A stretch of 44,051 bases of DNA from a virus. The stretch spans positions 1 to 44,051 of IMG/VR virus record IMGVR_UViG_3300046457_000036; one strand, written 5' to 3'. The position numbers and the translations under genes are program-made. Of the stretch, positions 9,188 through 38,242 are shown piece after piece. The notes under the pieces are model-generated. The model had not been told where the DNA came from, did not search any database, and was given only the letters and a program-made list of their open reading frames with translations. The number at the start of each line of letters is the position of its first letter. The stretch's first letter is position 1.

Positions 9188-9190
9188 GGA

Positions 9191-9646
9191 TCACCTGTAC
9201 CAGTACGTGTCGCCGTTGAATTCGACCGACGAATAATCAACACGCAGGTTGTTAGCCGTGGCCTCCCAGTCAATCTCAAGGTACGCAGGGAAGCCCTTGG
9301 GCACATCCCCGATATCCTCGACTAGCTCCTGCATCGCAGCCGTGAAGTGGCTGTCCAGAATGAGCGTGAGCGGATACCACGAGCCTTCCCATTGATGGTC
9401 GCCGCCGTAGCCTTTGAGGTCGTCCAGCAGGCTCCCAAGAGCCGCGAGTTCATCGGCCTCCTCGCTACTAAAGCCGACTTGGTTGCGGACCCAGTTAGCG
9501 AAGTCCACACCATCGTTGGCCGGATCAGCGTCGAACTCCTCTCGCAAGGCGTCGCGCTGCTCTCTCAGTTCATCGACTCGATCAGTTACGGCCCGAAGGT
9601 CGATTACGTCAGAGCCCTTGAAGTCCTCGATGGTGTCGGAACTCAT
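9191..9646 (-). CDS. Acidic conserved phage protein (151 aa)
   Basis: This 151-residue, strongly acidic protein has an N-terminal coiled coil (VTDRVDELREQRDALREEFD). Its C-terminal half carries the pattern YPLTLILDSHFTAAMQELV then EIDWEATANNLRVDY and FNGDTYWYR. I recognise this as a recurring phage/plasmid hypothetical family often seen near anti-restriction genes. The acidic surface would be compatible with DNA mimicry, but that is speculation. The leader TTAGGACTGCC gives the ribosome site. Confidence 0.75.
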   Translation of the reverse strand: MSSDTIEDFKGSDVIDLRAVTDRVDELREQRDALREEFDADPANDGVDFANWVRNQVGFSSEEADELAALGSLLDDLKGYGGDHQWEGSWYPLTLILDSHFTAAMQELVEDIGDVPKGFPAYLEIDWEATANNLRVDYSSVEFNGDTYWYR

Positions 9647-9666: not shown

Positions 9667-9701
9667 TTTGAAAAGAGGCGGGTGACAGAGCGCCACCCGC
9701 C
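9667..9701 (-). terminator. Rho-independent terminator after the first early gene
   Basis: Arms GGCGGGTG (9677-9684) and CACCCGCC (9694-9701) form a perfect 8-bp stem with a 9-nt loop. On the minus strand the stem is followed by TCTTTTC. It lies between the 80-aa gene (ends 9707) and the 151-aa gene, and would attenuate early leftward transcription after the first gene. Confidence 0.75.
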
Positions 9702-9706
9702 AGAGG

Positions 9707-9949
9707 TCAAGCTGATCCCACGATGTTGTCTATGAACTCCTGCGGCACCTCGGTAACGGTCAACCAGCCGTGGCCGGTGAACCAATCACGCATGTGTCGA
9801 GCGCTTGTCCGGGAGTGAAACTTAGAGGTACGCAAGGCACCTAAACCCGGCTTATACGCCGCGACTGGCCCTGTGTATGAGAACAGGATCAGCACGCCAT
9901 TGTTGAACTGCACTTCCGTTTCGTGGGGGCCGATCTGCCTCAGTATCAT
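9707..9949 (-). CDS. First early protein (80 aa)
   Basis: This 80-residue protein is the first gene after the non-coding region and so the first product of the presumed early transcript. It reads MILRQIGPHETEVQFNNGV, then FSYTGPVAAY, then RTSARHMRDWF. This looks like a small mixed alpha/beta phage protein that recurs as an uncharacterised family. A GAGGAT Shine-Dalgarno lies 6 nt upstream. It is set apart from later genes by a terminator hairpin, so it may be made at a higher level. In T7-like phages this position often holds host-takeover or anti-defence genes. Confidence 0.72.
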   Translation of the reverse strand: MILRQIGPHETEVQFNNGVLILFSYTGPVAAYKPGLGALRTSKFHSRTSARHMRDWFTGHGWLTVTEVPQEFIDNIVGSA

Positions 9950-10557
9950 TGGCTATCCTCAGTTCAAAAACGAGAGTCGAGCATCATACACAACAGGATG
10001 GTCTTACTTCACAGCAATTCATTCAGCGGCCTAGCGCTTCGCGTCTCCCACCGCACACCTGCTACGTGCCTAGCACCCTTCCTGCCCACCATCGACTAAC
10101 GCTGAGCCTGTGGCCGTCGTCCTGTCGTAAGTCTCAGTATCGGTCGTGCATCGGATCACTAGCGAGGAGCCTGTGAGTCCCTAGGTTAGCTGGCCTAGGC
10201 CGCTGAATGAATTACTGTAGCCGCCAATCAGGGCCGATGTACTGGCCGCGTGGCGAACAACAGATTCATCGGCGGGTTCACTCACACAGCACGCCACAGA
10301 TTAAGTGGTCGTATCCGCCATGTGTCCCGCCAGCAAATTGTTAATGAACGCCGCGTCGCGTATCGCCTAGAGTCTGTACCGGACATTCTTGCATCGGCTA
10401 TTCCGCCTGCATACAACCGTCCGTAGGCCGCAATCCCGGTGCCTCGCCATGACGCGTTAGACCGTTACCGCTTCCGTACTCTCTGCTACCCGCTGTCGCG
10501 CCCAATCAGTGATCGAGCGTTCCGCGTTACTGCCTTGCTACCTACATCGTGCTTCGC
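9950..10557. other. Non-coding early leader region
   Basis: No ORF with a credible start and codon pattern is seen on either strand. The region lies between the proximal early promoter block (-10 at 10558) and the first early gene, so it would be a roughly 600-nt 5' untranslated leader on the minus strand. It contains a long inverted repeat (10012-10034/10195-10217), a TGCTA/TAGCA hairpin (10060-10075) and a GCCGATG/CATCGGC pair (10233-10239/10267-10273). Confidence 0.7.
10012..10217 (-). ncRNA. Candidate structured leader RNA bounded by a 23-bp inverted repeat
   Basis: Arm 1 (10012-10034) and arm 2 (10195-10217) are reverse complements at 22 of 23 positions, with core AATTCATTCAGCGGCCTAG. 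They enclose 160 bp. The intervening sequence holds a nested TGCTA/TAGCA hairpin and no ORF with a credible start. It lies downstream of three leftward sigma70-like promoters, so the transcript could fold into one long-stem RNA. Alternatives are a pair of operator or replication-protein sites, or an RNase III processing signal like those in T7 early mRNA. The repeat is seen directly, and the ncRNA role is inferred. Confidence 0.45.
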
Positions 10558-10606
10558 ATCTTACAGACCGCTCAGCATTCTGTCAACTGCCTTTTGTGTC
10601 TCGCGT
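10558..10606 (-). promoter_or_regulatory. Early sigma70-like promoter block 1
   Basis: On the minus strand, TTGACA (10581-10586) is followed after exactly 17 nt by TAAGAT (10558-10563). Upstream is a conserved 20-nt element (10587-10606) with an A tract (CACAAAAGGCAG), identical to that of block 3. It is the copy nearest the early genes and has the best -10. It would be recognised by host RNA polymerase on entry. Confidence 0.72.
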
Positions 10607-10748: not shown

Positions 10749-10797
10749 ATGTTGCCTGAACCTTTACTGACTGTCAACTGCTTTTGTTGCCTCGCGG
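10749..10797 (-). promoter_or_regulatory. Early sigma70-like promoter block 2
   Basis: The minus strand reads TTGACA (10772-10777), 17 nt, CAACAT (10749-10754), then GGGAACC. The upstream element (CAACAAAAGCAG) is a diverged copy of that in blocks 1 and 3. The -10 is poor (3/6). The block's shared spacing and its downstream GGGAACC, also found in block 3, argue for common descent. Confidence 0.55.
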
Positions 10798-10885: not shown

Positions 10886-10934
10886 ATTTGAACAGAAGTC
10901 TAACCGTGTGTCAACTGCCTTTTGTGTCTCGCGT
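10886..10934 (-). promoter_or_regulatory. Early sigma70-like promoter block 3
   Basis: The minus strand reads TTGACA (10909-10914), 17 nt, TCAAAT (10886-10891), then GGGAACC. The 26 bases 10909-10934 are identical to 10581-10606 of block 1. It is the farthest of three tandem blocks (327 bp from block 1), all pointing to the early genes. Confidence 0.62.
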
Positions 10935-10998: not shown

Positions 10999-11771
10999 CC
11001 TGTCTATACGTCGCGCCGTGTGTATCGGTGCCGTACTGCGTGCTGTCTTATCTTGCGCTACCTGTCACTCCTGCTTACATGTCGTTACATCCAATGAACC
11101 GAAGTGTAATCGTTCTGTATGAAGTGTCTACTGTGTGCGTAAGCCTATCTACCCTTCTATTCCACGTATCACTTCTGTCCGTTCTGTGTGTCACCTGTCC
11201 AGCATGGCTTACCTGTCACCGTGTCCTGTCCGTGTCCATTCGGTTATACATTCATCCTATGTATATCTTTGTTCTCACCCGTGCCTAGTCACCGTGTCCT
11301 GTCACCTGTCCCTGTGCCCTGTGTGAGTGCATCTATTCCCTGTCACCTGTCCTGTGTGAGTGTTCATTGCTTACGTAGGGATTACCTTACGTGCCTGTCT
11401 CCGTTGCTGTTCTGTCCCGGTCATCGTTACCTGTCCGTGTCCTGTCCCTGTCCACCTGTCGCAATGCGCTCCCGGTGCCTGTCACCGTTCAACAGATGGA
11501 GCGCCGCTTCCCTGTCTGTATGACTGACCGAAAAGGAAATAGATGGGAACACGTCCACGCACAGCCTAGGCGCGAGCCACAAGCCCTGAATGATCGACGC
11601 GATTAGAGCCCCTGTGTGCCGTTCGTGCCGTGGTAAGCTACCCATGCCTAGGCTATGCCCTACTAGCCCGCTGTAGGCACCTAGAATCGCGTGCAATCAA
11701 CGTTCCCTGTCTCGCCATTGTCTCGCGTGGCGCACATCCTGCTCTGTATCCCTTGCCTGTCGTGTCCTGTC
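10999..11771 (+). repeat. CCTGTC hexamer array
   Basis: CCTGTC occurs 19 times on the plus strand in 773 bp, starting at 10999, 11061, 11194, 11212, 11225, 11298, 11305, 11339, 11346, 11394, 11430, 11441, 11447, 11455, 11478, 11511, 11706, 11756 and 11766. Fourteen of these lie in 11194-11516. Several are 6-8 nt apart. Related CTGTGT and CCTGTG words fill the gaps, giving a marked C/T-rich strand. It resembles in principle the arrays of a 7-mer next to the T7 terminal repeats. Confidence 0.75.
11514..11534 (-). promoter_or_regulatory. Phage-type promoter motif, copy 1 (left-end)
   Basis: The minus strand reads CTTTTCGGTCAGTCATACAG, then AC, then AGGG. It matches the motif found upstream of capsid and fiber. 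It points toward the early genes and overlaps the last copy of the dense part of the CCTGTC array. Its location is comparable to the left-end replication promoter of T7. Assignment to the phage RNA polymerase is inferred from conservation and position. Confidence 0.65.
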
Positions 11772-12014
11772 CCCTGCCTGTGCAAGGCAGCACCACACCT
11801 GAACCGCCCACGCTGCTGACGGTGTTCGCGCACAGGCCCGCGCCCGCGTACACCTCCAGTCGCGCACATGACGCGTATCGTGCGCCACCCGCGTTATCGC
11901 ACACGGGCGTACGGGGGCATACGTGGGCAGGCGCGGCGCAGGAGTGCCCTCAGATAACTAAATCAAAATTAGGTCCGCTCCCGGTACACTCCCACCTTTC
12001 GAATGGAGAATGTA

Positions 12015-12470
12015 ATGCGATTGACAGTAACTATTGCCGCCCTGCTGCTCGCCGGTTGTGCTGCCCAAGAGGTTCCGTACACAGCGCGAGGTGACACGAG
12101 ACATCCCGAGTCGGTGATTGAACAGGTGCTGATGGAACAGGAGGAGGATCGTCGGCCTGACTACGTGCGGACCACGGCTGAGTACGTGGAGTACGGGCGG
12201 GGCGCTACAGCCAAGTACAACGAGTTCTCGGAGAAGACCACGACACGCCGGAACGTCACCCGGCTGTACTTCCGCTCTGTGGCCACGGAGAAGGTCTACA
12301 CGAAGCGCAAGGCGGTCATCGTTCAGTTCCGCAGTACACAGGGCACCCTGCTGGCGACGGTCGTCACTGACAGCCTAGAGAGCGGTCAGCGGCTGGTCGA
12401 TGCTGTCGAGACAATGAAGGCAGGACACGGCGCCACGTTGCGTGAAAACAACACAGGCAGTGGACAGTAG
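12015..12470 (+). CDS. Lipoprotein of the lysogeny module (151 aa)
   Basis: This is one of only two convincing plus-strand genes. The start ATG at 12015 follows GGAG at 6-nt spacing; an in-frame ATG at 12003 lies before the ribosome site and is less likely. The signal MRLTVTIAALLLAGC has a lipobox with Cys15. The mature part is hydrophilic, with charged helices (PESVIEQVLMEQEEDRRPDYVRTTAEYVEYG) and a C-terminal strand-rich part (RNVTRLYFRSVATEKVYTKRKAVIVQFR). Located beside attP and the integrase and opposite to lytic transcription, it could be expressed from the prophage, as superinfection-exclusion lipoproteins are. That role is inference. Confidence 0.8.
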   Translation: MRLTVTIAALLLAGCAAQEVPYTARGDTRHPESVIEQVLMEQEEDRRPDYVRTTAEYVEYGRGATAKYNEFSEKTTTRRNVTRLYFRSVATEKVYTKRKAVIVQFRSTQGTLLATVVTDSLESGQRLVDAVETMKAGHGATLRENNTGSGQ

Positions 12471-12574: not shown

Positions 12575-12622
12575 TGGTGCGCCCGGCTGGGATCGAACCA
12601 GCAACCCCTGCCTTCGGAGGGC
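12575..12622 (-). other. attP core: 3' part of a tRNA-Arg(CCG) gene
   Basis: The reverse complement is the 3' half of a tRNA, read 5' to 3'. It has part of the anticodon stem, loop CTCCGAA (anticodon CCG), stem GGCAG, variable GGGTT, T arm GCTGG-TTCGATC-CCAGC, acceptor strand CGGGCGC, A and encoded CCA. The 5' half of the tRNA is missing. Upstream of a tyrosine integrase this is the classical attP core that rebuilds the host tRNA gene on integration. The crossover point within it cannot be seen. Confidence 0.85.
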
Positions 12623-12625
12623 CAC

Positions 12626-12659
12626 CCACATGCGGCTGGTGAGGCCCGCCGCACATGGG
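12626..12659. repeat. Imperfect inverted repeat beside attP
   Basis: GCGGC (12632-12636) pairs with GCCGC (12648-12652), and outer CCCA (12625-12628) with TGGG (12656-12659), across an internal mismatch. It lies between the tRNA-derived core and the integrase start. It may bind integrase or excisionase or fold in the int leader, which is not established. Confidence 0.4.
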
Positions 12660-12732
12660 CTGTACTCTATCCCGCTTGACACCGCGAGGCAACGGCGAGA
12701 CACTGGCTGCTCAAACGACACGGGGAGTCAAA

Positions 12733-13764
12733 ATGGGCACGGTACAGAAGCGGGATGACAATCAGGGTACTACAACGTGGCAGGCACGGGTCAGGCGCAA
12801 GGGCTATCCGGCTGTCAGCAGGACGTTCAGCAGCGAGAAGGATGCCCAGCAGTGGGTGACCGAGCGCGAGGCTGAAATGAGCCGGGGCGTGTTCGTGGAC
12901 ACCAGCAAGGCACGGGAGCATACGCTGGCTGATGTGATCGGGATGTACGTGGAGAAGGAGACACCCAAGAAGAAGGGCAAGGACTCCGAGGACTGGCGGC
13001 TCAAGGCGATGGCCCGTGACCGCATGGCGCAGTACGCCGTGGCCCACCTGACACCTGCCGTTATTGCGAACTACCGGGACCGTCGCCTATCGGGGATGGA
13101 CTCGGGCCGTCCGGTGACCGGCTCCACGGTGAACCGGGAACTGAACCTCCTGCATCATGTGCTGGAGATCGCCCGTAAGGACTGGGGCATCGGGACGGTC
13201 ACCAATCCGGTCAGCGACGTGCGCCGTCCGAAGTCGAGCCCTCCGAGGGACCGGCGACTGGAACCTGCCGAGGAACTGGCGCTACTGGCTGCGGCGTCCG
13301 AAGCCCGGTCGTGGTATCTCCGTCCGGTGGTCGAGCTTGCCATTGAAACAGCCATGCGTCAGTCCGAGATCGTCGGGCTGGTGTGGGAGCAGATCAACCT
13401 CGAAGATCAGGTAGCGTACCTGAAGTCCGGGTCAACCAAGAATGATGAACAGCGCGGCGTACCCCTGTCCAAGCGGGCCGTCGAGATACTACGGGGACTG
13501 CCGAGCTACGCGGAGCGTAAGGGTCCGGTGTTCCCCGGTGTGACTGCGGAGGCGGTGAAGCGTGCCTTCATCCGGCTCAAGAAGCGGATCGGGCTGGACG
13601 ACTTCACCTTCCACGATACGCGGCACGAGGCCACGTCGCGGCTGGTTGAGAAGGATGTGTTCAGCGAGACTGAGATCATGTCGATAACCGGGCACAAGAC
13701 CAGCGCGATGATGCGCCGGTACACCCACCTGCGGGCTAAGGACTTGGCGCGGAAGCTGGGCTGA
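12733..13764 (+). CDS. int: Tyrosine integrase
   Basis: This 343-residue site-specific recombinase is predicted to insert the phage at a host tRNA-Arg(CCG) gene. The N-terminus (GTVQKRDDNQGTTTWQARVR) is an arm-type DNA-binding domain, followed by a SAM-like core-binding domain. The catalytic set is visible: Arg209 in AMRQSEI, Lys about 236 in TKNDEQRG, HDTR (His294, Arg297), His321 in TGHKTS and Tyr330 in RRYTH. The frame is open from 12655, but ATG 12733 has GGGGAG 5 nt upstream. The longer form would start almost inside the att region. It is transcribed opposite to the lytic genes, and its 3' end overlaps the convergent 111-aa gene by 29 bp. Confidence 0.95.
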   Translation: MGTVQKRDDNQGTTTWQARVRRKGYPAVSRTFSSEKDAQQWVTEREAEMSRGVFVDTSKAREHTLADVIGMYVEKETPKKKGKDSEDWRLKAMARDRMAQYAVAHLTPAVIANYRDRRLSGMDSGRPVTGSTVNRELNLLHHVLEIARKDWGIGTVTNPVSDVRRPKSSPPRDRRLEPAEELALLAAASEARSWYLRPVVELAIETAMRQSEIVGLVWEQINLEDQVAYLKSGSTKNDEQRGVPLSKRAVEILRGLPSYAERKGPVFPGVTAEAVKRAFIRLKKRIGLDDFTFHDTRHEATSRLVEKDVFSETEIMSITGHKTSAMMRRYTHLRAKDLARKLG

Positions 13765-19481: not shown

Positions 19482-19503
19482 GTCTGTATGGCAGACCGAA
19501 AAG
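19482..19503 (-). promoter_or_regulatory. Phage-type promoter motif, copy 2 (tail fiber)
   Basis: The minus strand reads CTTTTCGGTCTGCCATACAG, then ACACTAAAAAGG. It lies 19 nt before the fiber ATG. In this copy GTCTG/CAGAC also makes a 5-bp palindrome. The upstream T-rich side coincides with the T tract of a terminator. Confidence 0.7.
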
Positions 19504-32061: not shown

Positions 32062-32114
32062 GTGTAGGATTCCTTATTGTAAGAATGTGTGATTGGCCAA
32101 TGACACGTTTCTGT

Positions 32115-32134
32115 GTCTGTATGGCTGACCGAAA
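32115..32134 (-). promoter_or_regulatory. Phage-type promoter motif, copy 3 (capsid)
   Basis: The minus strand reads TTTCGGTCAGCCATACAGAC, then ACAGAAACG. It lies 54 nt before the capsid ATG and just after a terminator. The downstream ACxGAAACG is shared with copy 4, which supports a leftward promoter orientation. Confidence 0.75.
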
Positions 32135-32135
32135 T

Positions 32136-32170
32136 GAGAAAAGGCCCGCCAGCGGTTGCTGGGCGGGCCT
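32136..32170 (-). terminator. Terminator between scaffold and capsid
   Basis: AGGCCCGCC (32142-32150) and GGCGGGCCT (32162-32170) form a perfect 9-bp stem with an 11-nt loop, followed on the minus strand by TTTTCTC. It insulates the capsid promoter from upstream transcription. It is sequence-related to the terminator before the tail fiber. Confidence 0.85.
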
Positions 32171-35706: not shown

Positions 35707-35724
35707 GGGTTGCTCCGTTTCGGT

Positions 35725-35741
35725 GTCTGTATGACTGACCG
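35725..35741 (-). promoter_or_regulatory. Phage-type promoter motif, copy 4 (structural operon)
   Basis: The minus strand reads CGGTCAGTCATACAGACACC, then GAAACGG. It lies 18 nt before the 56-aa gene that opens the structural operon. The nucleotides on both sides match the capsid copy. Confidence 0.72.
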
Positions 35742-35756
35742 TATTGGCTTTGGCCT

Positions 35757-35776
35757 TTTCGGTTCGCCATACAGAC
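35757..35776 (+). promoter_or_regulatory. Phage-type promoter motif, copy 5 (divergent, antisense to RNA polymerase)
   Basis: The plus strand reads TTTCGGTTCGCCATACAGAC, the same motif in the opposite orientation, 18 bp from copy 4 and 7 bp beyond the 3' end of the RNA polymerase gene. If active it would transcribe the antisense strand of that gene. Together with copy 4 it also forms an imperfect 17-bp stem (14/17) with an 18-nt loop, so an RNA hairpin role is the alternative. Confidence 0.5.
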
Positions 35777-35782
35777 GGATAA

Positions 35783-38242
35783 TCATGCGAAGAAGAATTT
35801 GCTCGTGAGAACTTGCTGCAAATCCAGTCCACCGCTCGGGGGAATCGCAGGCAAGCCGCTGTAGCTATTGCTGAAGTCACGCAACGGATCGTACGTTTCA
35901 TACATCTCCACGAATTGTTCACGGATCAACTCGTATAGCTTCTGAGTGTCAGCCGCGTGTGTACCGTAGTCGTCATGGATCATCGCCAGAGAGTCAATCC
36001 CCGCCCGTCCAGCCGCCAGTACAGTTAATGTCAAGTGAGAAGCATCCATACTGTGTACAAAGTTAGGAGCTATCCCGTTCTTGTGTCGATTCGAACTAGG
36101 CTCGTCACCCACCATCCCGCACCTGATACGCACACCACCCAGCAACAGTGACCGTACGTGTACAAGCTCAACCTCGTTGTAGACCTGATGAACCGGAAAC
36201 CCGCTCGGAGCCACCCACCCTATCTGTGACTGGCCGCTTTTAATAAGGGTGTTCGCACACTTCTGCAACCAACTCATTGCTTCAGACGCGGCGATAACAA
36301 CCTTGCCGATGGAGTCCCATACGAGGTGCGAGAGGAAGTTCGCAGCATGTGGATACTCGGACTTCTCAAACTCAGGGGCGTTACCCTTTTGCAAGTAGTC
36401 CTCAGTGATGAACTGCGCGCAAGAGAAGCGAGTGGAGCCATAAGGCAACGTCATAACGCTGCGCTTCACAATTCCGCGGTTCATCTTGTGGGCCAGCCAC
36501 TTGTTGCGGAATCCCCAATCGCGCTCACTCACCGTGTCCATTTTGAGGTCGGCAAGTTTCAGCGCTACTAGGTCGGCAACCTGCTGGTAAATGTCGTTGG
36601 GTTCGTCACTGTCAAGGAGATTAGTCGCCCGTCCTCCAACAGAATCTCGGAGCATTGCCGAGAAGTGCTGTAGGCCATTGCAACTACCGTCGAGCCCAAC
36701 CGCGATTCGAGATTTGAAAGTACTTGGCGCTGCTCGGTACTCAGCGTACTCAATGCACCACGCAAGAAACTGAAGGGGGCTATCGGCTTCGGACCAGCCT
36801 TGATGTGCAACGGGGTCTGTACCCCACTCGATGATGTAGCGGTCATTTTCATTTACCCATTTGATGCGGTCAGCGAACGGAACCTTGTCGATACCGAAGC
36901 GATTAGCGCCGTTGATCTTGAACCACCGCACCGCGTTCTCGTCGGTGAGTGGCTTACCATCTGCGAAGTGCAGGAGCGCCTTCTGTAGGTCGCTGCCCTG
37001 CGGTGATACTCCGGTCGTCATCGCATACAACCGGCCCCTGAAGTCGGCCTGATAGACGAAGTGGATCGCGTCATAGTCCTTGAACTTGTGAGCGATGCGC
37101 GTCGCCGTGTAGAACCTGCCCCAGCGGGTGCCGCGCAGCTTGCGCTCGGTGTGCCACTCGGAGGTCAGCTTGCGCCACCGGGCGAACTCCTCTAGCTGCT
37201 GCGGGTCCATGTCCTCTTTCTTCAACTCAGGTGTCAGCCACTCGGGCTTATCAGGGCGCGGTGTCTCTGCATGGGTGATGATCTCGTCCATGTCGAAGTC
37301 GCGCTTGGCGAGGTCCGTAACTGCGGCGAGTAGCTTCGCGTTGATCTGCCACCGCACGGCCTGCAACCTGTTCAACGCGCCGAACACCTGCGTGAGGTCA
37401 GCAGCGCGCACTGCTTCGAGCGCAGCGCCGGTCTTGTGTACGTTCACGCACAGCGGCATCTGCCTGCGCATTTCATTCGTGTGGTATCCGCCGTCATTGA
37501 GCGCTACCCAGTCCATCGGCTTCTCGATGAACGGCAGGCTGTACGGCATCGTCAGTTCCACCGTGGTGCGGATCGACTCGATGACGCGTGCCGCCCCGTC
37601 GCTGAACACCACATCGAACTCCGTCTTGGTGCTGCGCTGGAAGCTGGTGGACACGCGGCGCTGCACGTCGAGCATGCCCAGCACACGCATCTGTTCGATC
37701 AGGTACATGGCAAGCTGCTCGCGGTCAGGCACGTCCCAGTGCGGGATGTCGATGCTGTGCTGATCCATCGTGTGACGCATGGCGTTCAGCCGGTGGACTG
37801 CATCGCGGGAGTGCTTACGCTCCAAGTCGTGCGTCAGCTTCCAGAACAGTTCGGGGTTGATGTGTTCGAACTGCGACAGCACCAACTCACCGTAAATCTC
37901 GCGGCCCATCTGGCGGGCCATGACTCGCACGTTTTGATTCGGGCCGAGTAGCTGGATCAGCGCCGAGCGCACTGCGATGTACGCAACGGCTCGGGCGTCG
38001 AGCGGCTGGAGCAGAGCCACGTGCGCCTTGCGGCGACCGGGCTTGCCCAGCGTCTGAATCTCGGCCTCGATCACTTCGGCCAGCGGTAGCACGTACCGGC
38101 GGAAGATCGCAGCGGCGTAAGGGTTCGTATCGGCGTGGCCCTCGCGCTCCCGCTTATCCATCATCTGTACTGCTCGGTCACGTCCAGCTTGCCGGGTTTC
38201 GAGTTCCAACTCCTTCTGAGTCCTTACTACCGCTTGAGTCAT
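35783..38242 (-). CDS. Single-subunit (T7-type) RNA polymerase
   Basis: This 819-residue phage RNA polymerase shows motif A with GLDGSCNGLQH (Asp about 518), motif B with KRSVMTLPYGST, and motif C with MIHDDYGTHA (Asp about 757). The C-terminus is KFFFA, like the FAFA end of T7 RNA polymerase. Placement between replication and structural genes is the phiKMV trait. The ATG overlaps the ligase stop (TAATG). The downstream half (35783 to about 36870) is visibly AT-richer than the first half. It should recognise the CATACAGAC promoter motif found four to five times in this genome. Confidence 0.97.
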   Translation of the reverse strand: MTQAVVRTQKELELETRQAGRDRAVQMMDKREREGHADTNPYAAAIFRRYVLPLAEVIEAEIQTLGKPGRRKAHVALLQPLDARAVAYIAVRSALIQLLGPNQNVRVMARQMGREIYGELVLSQFEHINPELFWKLTHDLERKHSRDAVHRLNAMRHTMDQHSIDIPHWDVPDREQLAMYLIEQMRVLGMLDVQRRVSTSFQRSTKTEFDVVFSDGAARVIESIRTTVELTMPYSLPFIEKPMDWVALNDGGYHTNEMRRQMPLCVNVHKTGAALEAVRAADLTQVFGALNRLQAVRWQINAKLLAAVTDLAKRDFDMDEIITHAETPRPDKPEWLTPELKKEDMDPQQLEEFARWRKLTSEWHTERKLRGTRWGRFYTATRIAHKFKDYDAIHFVYQADFRGRLYAMTTGVSPQGSDLQKALLHFADGKPLTDENAVRWFKINGANRFGIDKVPFADRIKWVNENDRYIIEWGTDPVAHQGWSEADSPLQFLAWCIEYAEYRAAPSTFKSRIAVGLDGSCNGLQHFSAMLRDSVGGRATNLLDSDEPNDIYQQVADLVALKLADLKMDTVSERDWGFRNKWLAHKMNRGIVKRSVMTLPYGSTRFSCAQFITEDYLQKGNAPEFEKSEYPHAANFLSHLVWDSIGKVVIAASEAMSWLQKCANTLIKSGQSQIGWVAPSGFPVHQVYNEVELVHVRSLLLGGVRIRCGMVGDEPSSNRHKNGIAPNFVHSMDASHLTLTVLAAGRAGIDSLAMIHDDYGTHAADTQKLYELIREQFVEMYETYDPLRDFSNSYSGLPAIPPSGGLDLQQVLTSKFFFA

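Follow-up and report, generated by a model that had tools for sequence, protein, structure and literature searches.

Covariation points to a conserved RNA stem behind a boxA in the early leader of a T7-like phage

Introduction

The early leaders of phages T7 and T3 carry, in order, tandem host promoters, a boxA core, a structured stem, and the first early gene (PMC3276506; PMC3709561); by name, these are promoters A1–A3, boxA, the RNase III site R0.3, and gene 0.3. According to PMC3709561, citing Savalia 2010, the T7 boxA is an anti-termination element that follows the early promoters, and Gp2 becomes dispensable once it is mutated; on this account boxA in T7-like leaders is already known from T7. 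The phage protein N and boxB are needed at the lambda nut site. There, too, boxA recruits NusB/S10 (PMC10250234). Bacterial rRNA operon leaders combine boxB, boxA, and boxC with a leader–trailer helix that is cut by RNase III. It is RNase III that releases pre-16S rRNA, and an rrn-type boxA works without N.

We analyzed a virus record of 44,051 bases, the whole of which we call the window. A previous reading of the letters alone (the sequence-only reading) had picked out a long inverted repeat between promoter-like blocks and the first early gene.

Results

The phage and its integrase

At the RNA polymerase, the window shares 63% identity with Burkholderia phage Paku and 53% with JG068 (both Autographiviridae); judged by sequence, the phage is T7-like (Autographiviridae) and related to Paku. 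It differs from T7 and T3 in carrying a tyrosine integrase (12655–13764, plus strand), a gene found in Paku at least as well. A 48-bp segment (12575–12622) is 98% identical to the 3′ portion of the tRNA-Ser annotated in Paku and is a likely candidate for the attachment site; a tRNA search of the window returned none. The integrase and the 48-bp match suggest that this T7-like phage is probably temperate and integrates. A blastn search of leaders against named phages gave no match for the window leader, and the Paku leader matched only itself; a terminase search of bacterial genomes returned one contig, without the leader.

Several other features of the window were recorded. A lipoprotein-like ORF (12003–12470, plus strand; 155 aa, starting MRLTVTIAALLLAGCAAQEV) lies on the strand opposite to that of the early genes and adjoins the integrase, and is possibly a lysogeny-associated gene. 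Positions 9188–9431, in the region of the minus-strand early gene 9191–9646, have ∼70% identity to genes annotated as hypothetical in Gordonia phages Engineer and Abscondus, an unexpected and distant match. Between 10000 and 12000 there is a strong strand skew over ∼2 kb (GC skew −0.15, AT skew about −0.23) together with many CCTGTCACC-like short repeats. Two 30-mers that are 87% identical, one immediately beyond the RNA polymerase gene (35712–35741) and one upstream of the early promoters (about 11501–11530), are candidates for a phage promoter or terminator motif. Related sequences with CCATACAGAC, found in both orientations at 19482–19503, 32104–32143, and 35748–35787, look like recurring terminator or regulatory hairpins.

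Layout of the early leader

The leader lies in what had been described as a gene-free area, and no minus-strand ORF of at least 60 aa was found between 9949 and 11427. The three leftward promoter-like blocks were recovered as well; each carries GCAGTTGACA, and they are predicted to form a tandem set of host sigma70 promoters ahead of the first early gene, as in the T7 group. From the TTGACA-17-TAAGAT promoter, transcription is expected to start near 10551, which puts the long stem (H2) ∼330 nt downstream, the distance given in the sequence-only reading. In the direction of transcription, the features are:

10909–10918, minus strand: −35 block GCAGTTGACA of a putative early host-type promoter, upstream copy (repeat family D1; identified by its match to the consensus alone)
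10772–10781, minus strand: −35 block GCAGTTGACA of a putative early host-type promoter, middle copy (weak −10)
10558–10590, minus strand: putative early host-type promoter nearest the leader, TTGACA-17-TAAGAT (−35 block GCAGTTGACA at 10581–10590)
10336–10349, minus strand: rrn-type boxA GTTCATTAACAATT, one mismatch to GYTCTTTAANAATT (14-mer match; in all ten group leaders)
10326–10332, minus strand: helix H1, 5′ arm, directly after boxA (covarying 7-bp helix, RNAalifold)
10270–10276, minus strand: helix H1, 3′ arm (covarying 7-bp helix, RNAalifold)
10195–10218, minus strand: long stem H2, 5′ arm ACAGTAATTCATTCAGCGGCCTAG (inverted-repeat scan, covariation)
10035–10194, minus strand: enclosed loop of 160 nt (83 nt in G001), variable and without a stable fold (comparison with relatives, shuffle folding)
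10011–10034, minus strand: long stem H2, 3′ arm CTAGGCCGCTGAATGAATTGCTGT, lying 61 nt ahead of the start codon of the first early gene (inverted-repeat scan, covariation)
9707–9949, minus strand: first early gene, 80 aa, PHROG 5643 (ORF and PHROG membership)
9677–9701, minus strand: intrinsic-terminator-like hairpin directly after the first early gene (same in G001; L006 6250–6274)

In Paku (L001, MZ326863), six ORFs are annotated in the promoter and leader region (134–1460), and one of them, CPT_Paku_006 (1299–1460), starts inside the 5′ stem arm and spans the 3′ arm. We regard ORFs annotated in such leaders (Paku genes 001–006) as probably spurious, which serves as a warning.

A covarying stem before the first early gene

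The analysis confirms the inverted repeat and lengthens its arms to 24 nt, one more than first described: 23 of the 24 positions (96%) form Watson–Crick pairs and one is a U–G wobble on the minus-strand RNA, with 160 nt enclosed. Within the 600 nt preceding the first early gene, H2 scores 23, against a mean of 9.5 and a maximum of 13 in 100 dinucleotide shuffles. The minus strand of 10005–10280 folds better than shuffles (−112 kcal/mol, z −2.8; plus strand −99.3, z −1.8). Folding of all 602 nt of the leader beats shuffles by only a moderate margin (z −1.6), so the signal lies in H2 itself.

We compared a group of ten leaders (window, G001/L006, Paku, L026/L104, L035, L058, L060, L064, L100, and L106). 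A long stem occupies the same place in nine of the ten, a result that 0/100 shuffles reach in each; in L106 the ungapped inverted-repeat scan found none, though boxA is present. Seven relatives have window-like arms forming a stem of 22–26 bp at the same location, and in an eighth, L064, the arms are wholly different (22 nt, pairing 91%) with the position kept. The arms co-vary between groups (CAGCGGCC/GGCCGCTG in the window, GACTGGC/GCCAGTC in Paku, AAGCGGCC/GGCCGCTT in L035, and GAGCGGCC/GGCCGCTC in L100). An alignment of the six distinct arm pairs, consisting of the arms only and typed in register, had 97.7% of cells paired and six pairs altered on both sides, versus none in slid controls. 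Run on nine full leaders, RNAalifold recovered H2 and added helix H1 after boxA.

Non-Watson–Crick stem positions over 15 leaders comprised 12 G–U, two A–C, and 11 others. An excess of G–U over A–C on the transcribed strand is what is expected for RNA and so supports an RNA element; together with the paired changes, and with the L064 arms that are unrelated yet still pair, it leads us to read H2 as a real, conserved RNA stem of about two helical turns on the early transcript. To this extent, the proposed structured RNA element of the early leader is borne out.

Leaders beating all of their shuffles had arms of 20–26 bp that enclosed loops of 4–160 nt, and their 3′ end lay 1–94 nt short of the start codon; given these ranges for arm and loop, it is the stem and not the loop that is kept. 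Loop length in the group varies over 82–160 nt, that of G001 being 77 nt shorter than the window's, and in eight relatives folding of the loops did not surpass that of shuffles (z 0 to +2), with no conserved stable fold of the enclosed domain. No Rfam match was obtained at the gathering threshold or at E ≤ 5, and at these thresholds no rRNA is enclosed by H2. A 15-nt loop motif, AGGGACTACAGGCTC, is common to L035/L104 and L064, whose arms differ. The smaller elements first described fared less well than the arms: a 7-bp pair (10233–10239/10267–10273) exists, but the relatives support pairing of 10326–10332 with 10270–10276 (H1) instead, and we found no support for a role of the nested hairpin at 10060–10075; the large loop in which it lies is mostly absent from G001.

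A boxA between promoters and stem

Overlooked in the sequence-only reading was a boxA (10336–10349, minus strand), the only site in the window within one mismatch of GYTCTTTAANAATT on either strand (0/100 shuffles have any). All ten group leaders contain a boxA within one mismatch, both of the 14-mer GYTCTTTAANAATT (0/300 shuffles each) and of the published consensus GYTCTTTAANA (PMC5725501). The longest invariant run of the leader alignment, TAACAATT, lies inside it (G-TC--TAACAATT). Each of two boxA sites departs from it at a different position, GTTCATTAACA in the window and GCTCTGTAACA in Paku, and may therefore be less active. In the bacterial family to which the single host-genome match belongs, rrn leaders have GTTCTTTAACAATT and rrn spacers GTTCTTTAACAATCTGG. 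No clear boxC was found in the 5′ strand of the long helix: GCTGTGTGAG (two mismatches to UCUGUGUGGG by eye) lies between boxA and the stem, outside the latter, in the window and G001, and was not seen in the leader alignment of the other relatives.

The exact 11-nt core occurs in the early leaders of T7 (813–823), T3 (781–791), gh-1, K1F, SP6, Dev2, Pisces, and Klebsiella phage P20-768. In the SP6 (L122) early region, two exact cores (656 and 926) flank the first annotated gene. An initial scan with a boxA-like pattern gave mostly chance matches in AT-rich phages, and these were dropped.

Stems in other Autographiviridae

The sequence-only reading knew of no T7-like leader with such an element, and this did not hold up: T3 has its annotated R0.3 at this position (822–875, with gene 0.3 at 901), gh-1 has a putative RNase III stem annotated after its early promoters (845–893), and stems of 20–24 bp stand directly before the first early gene in several other Autographiviridae. 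Percy, DCM, Lullwater, Cd1, BC, SB5, phiKMV, and LUZ19 have stems of 20–23 bp located 1–66 nt before the first gene (0/100 shuffles each) and no boxA; JG068, Valrath, and P14, likewise without boxA, have weaker stems (one to three of 100 shuffles). In phiKMV, Cd1, Percy, and SB5, the stem of 20–23 bp stands 14–66 nt ahead of the first early gene and exceeds chance expectation, as in the window. These four differ from the window in that the arms are unrelated, some are simple hairpins, and no boxA lies within three mismatches of the 14-mer, a gamma-proteobacterial consensus. Since that consensus may not suit Caulobacter hosts, a boxA of another form in these hosts may explain why none was seen in Caulobacter phages. 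JG068, phiKMV, and P14 have compact stems with 3–4 nt loops at the same place.

The ungapped scan, which detected no stem in SP6, LKA1, or L106, also misses T7 R0.3, so a negative there means only that there is no long regular stem. T7 R0.3 is a compact irregular hairpin (fold at its place, z −3.4), whereas the window group has a near-perfect stem of 22–26 bp closing 82–160 nt; in the window, with its 160-nt loop, no compact irregular hairpin with an internal loop of the R0.3 type was found. The distance from boxA also differs, about 115 nt to the stem in the window versus about 10 nt to the folded region in T7. In L106 boxA occurs without a long stem, and a stem occurs without boxA in JG068, the Caulobacter phages, SB5, and phiKMV, so the two are separable. 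Both are known or widespread and can occur apart.

Discussion

The window leader resembles the T7 group in having both an RNA stem and a boxA, and we think it likely that H2 serves for processing in a T7-type early leader composed of host promoters, a boxA antitermination site, an RNase III stem, and the first early gene. A stem of about two turns, free in sequence, with a variable unstructured loop and a place directly before the first gene, fits an RNase III leader-trimming site. Host RNA polymerase would start at the tandem sigma70-type promoters and run ∼200 nt to boxA, whose RNA would load NusB/S10 and other Nus factors, allowing the polymerase to pass the ∼600-nt untranslated leader and early terminators (9677–9701 in the window; 1453–1495 and 1857–1876 in Paku). 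The leader would form its 22–26 bp stem just before the first early gene, and host RNase III would probably cut both strands, so that the leader is discarded and the early mRNA receives a defined processed 5′ end. We infer RNase III cleavage and Nus-factor loading from the sequence and from T7, and likewise infer an effect on gene expression. Counting against this reading are the single deviations in the boxA of the window and of Paku, the occurrence of boxA and stem apart from each other, and the contrast with the compact hairpin of T7. Among the four roles originally suggested (noncoding RNA, RNase III site, stabilizer, and decoy against host defense), RNase III processing fits best, because conservation falls on the stem and its place is that of R0.3 in T3 and T7 (PMC3276506); nothing was found in favor of a decoy.

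The stem could instead mainly stabilize the early mRNA, its structure blocking 5′-end-dependent decay with no need for cleavage. A strong stem close upstream of the first gene, with sequence free to change and pairing kept, is compatible with this, but the 5′ end lies ∼330 nt upstream, so the stem would cap the transcript only if cut first, and arm length is held near 22 bp; we consider stabilization unlikely. Release of a noncoding RNA from the enclosed 82–160 nt, in the manner of RNase III with pre-16S rRNA, seems quite improbable to us. The geometry does recall the boxA and leader–trailer helix of rRNA operons (PMC10250234), and the motif shared by L035/L104 and L064 despite different arms could be taken in its favor; against this, the loops fold like shuffles, differ by 77 nt between close relatives, and lack an Rfam match, and the stems at this place in JG068, phiKMV, and P14 are compact, with loops of 3–4 nt.

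An attenuator, in which the stem would switch with a terminator to set early expression, we hold to be very improbable. Paku has an annotated terminator between stem and first gene, a point that also speaks against our preferred reading; the same hairpin is present in L026/L035, and a terminator follows the first gene in the window and G001. No terminator was found between stem and gene in the window, G001, L058, or L064, however, and no alternative pairing of the arms was found. Finally, near-perfect palindromic arms in a phage with an integrase might suggest a DNA operator, a cruciform, or the ends of a small mobile element, a reading that we hardly credit in view of the compensatory changes, the G–U excess on the transcribed strand, a location that stays between promoters and first gene across many phages, the position kept with wholly different arms in L064, and the lack of an arm copy elsewhere in the window genome or of the 19-nt exact arm pattern in any other viral contig.

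Read as a processing stem, H2 extends the T7 early-leader plan of promoters, boxA, and RNase III stem to Paku-related T7-like phages, and a two-turn stem is found at this spot in many Autographiviridae even where the sequence is replaced. The analysis provides concrete candidate cut sites and an antitermination site for testing, and suggests that the stem and boxA could locate the true start of early operons.

The leader also has likenesses outside the T7 group. With the lambda nut site it shares boxA, and differs in that nut requires N and boxB. With bacterial rRNA operon leaders it shares a boxA, as found in the rrn leaders and spacers of the host family, and a long covarying stem after boxA that closes a loop (PMC10250234); the rRNA stems are 25–40 bp versus 22–26 bp here, and the loop here is unstructured. 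The rRNA-operon device might even have been copied whole, with a boxA-bound Nus complex tethering the leader, distant arms pairing as they emerge, RNase III cutting both, and the enclosed RNA freed with a function of its own, perhaps via the shared AGGGACU-ACAGGCUC motif, a speculation to which we give little credence. The window leader is best read as an elaborated form of a layout known from T7 and not a new system; what is unusual is the large loop, the full exchange of arm sequence in L064, and the likeness to rRNA leaders.
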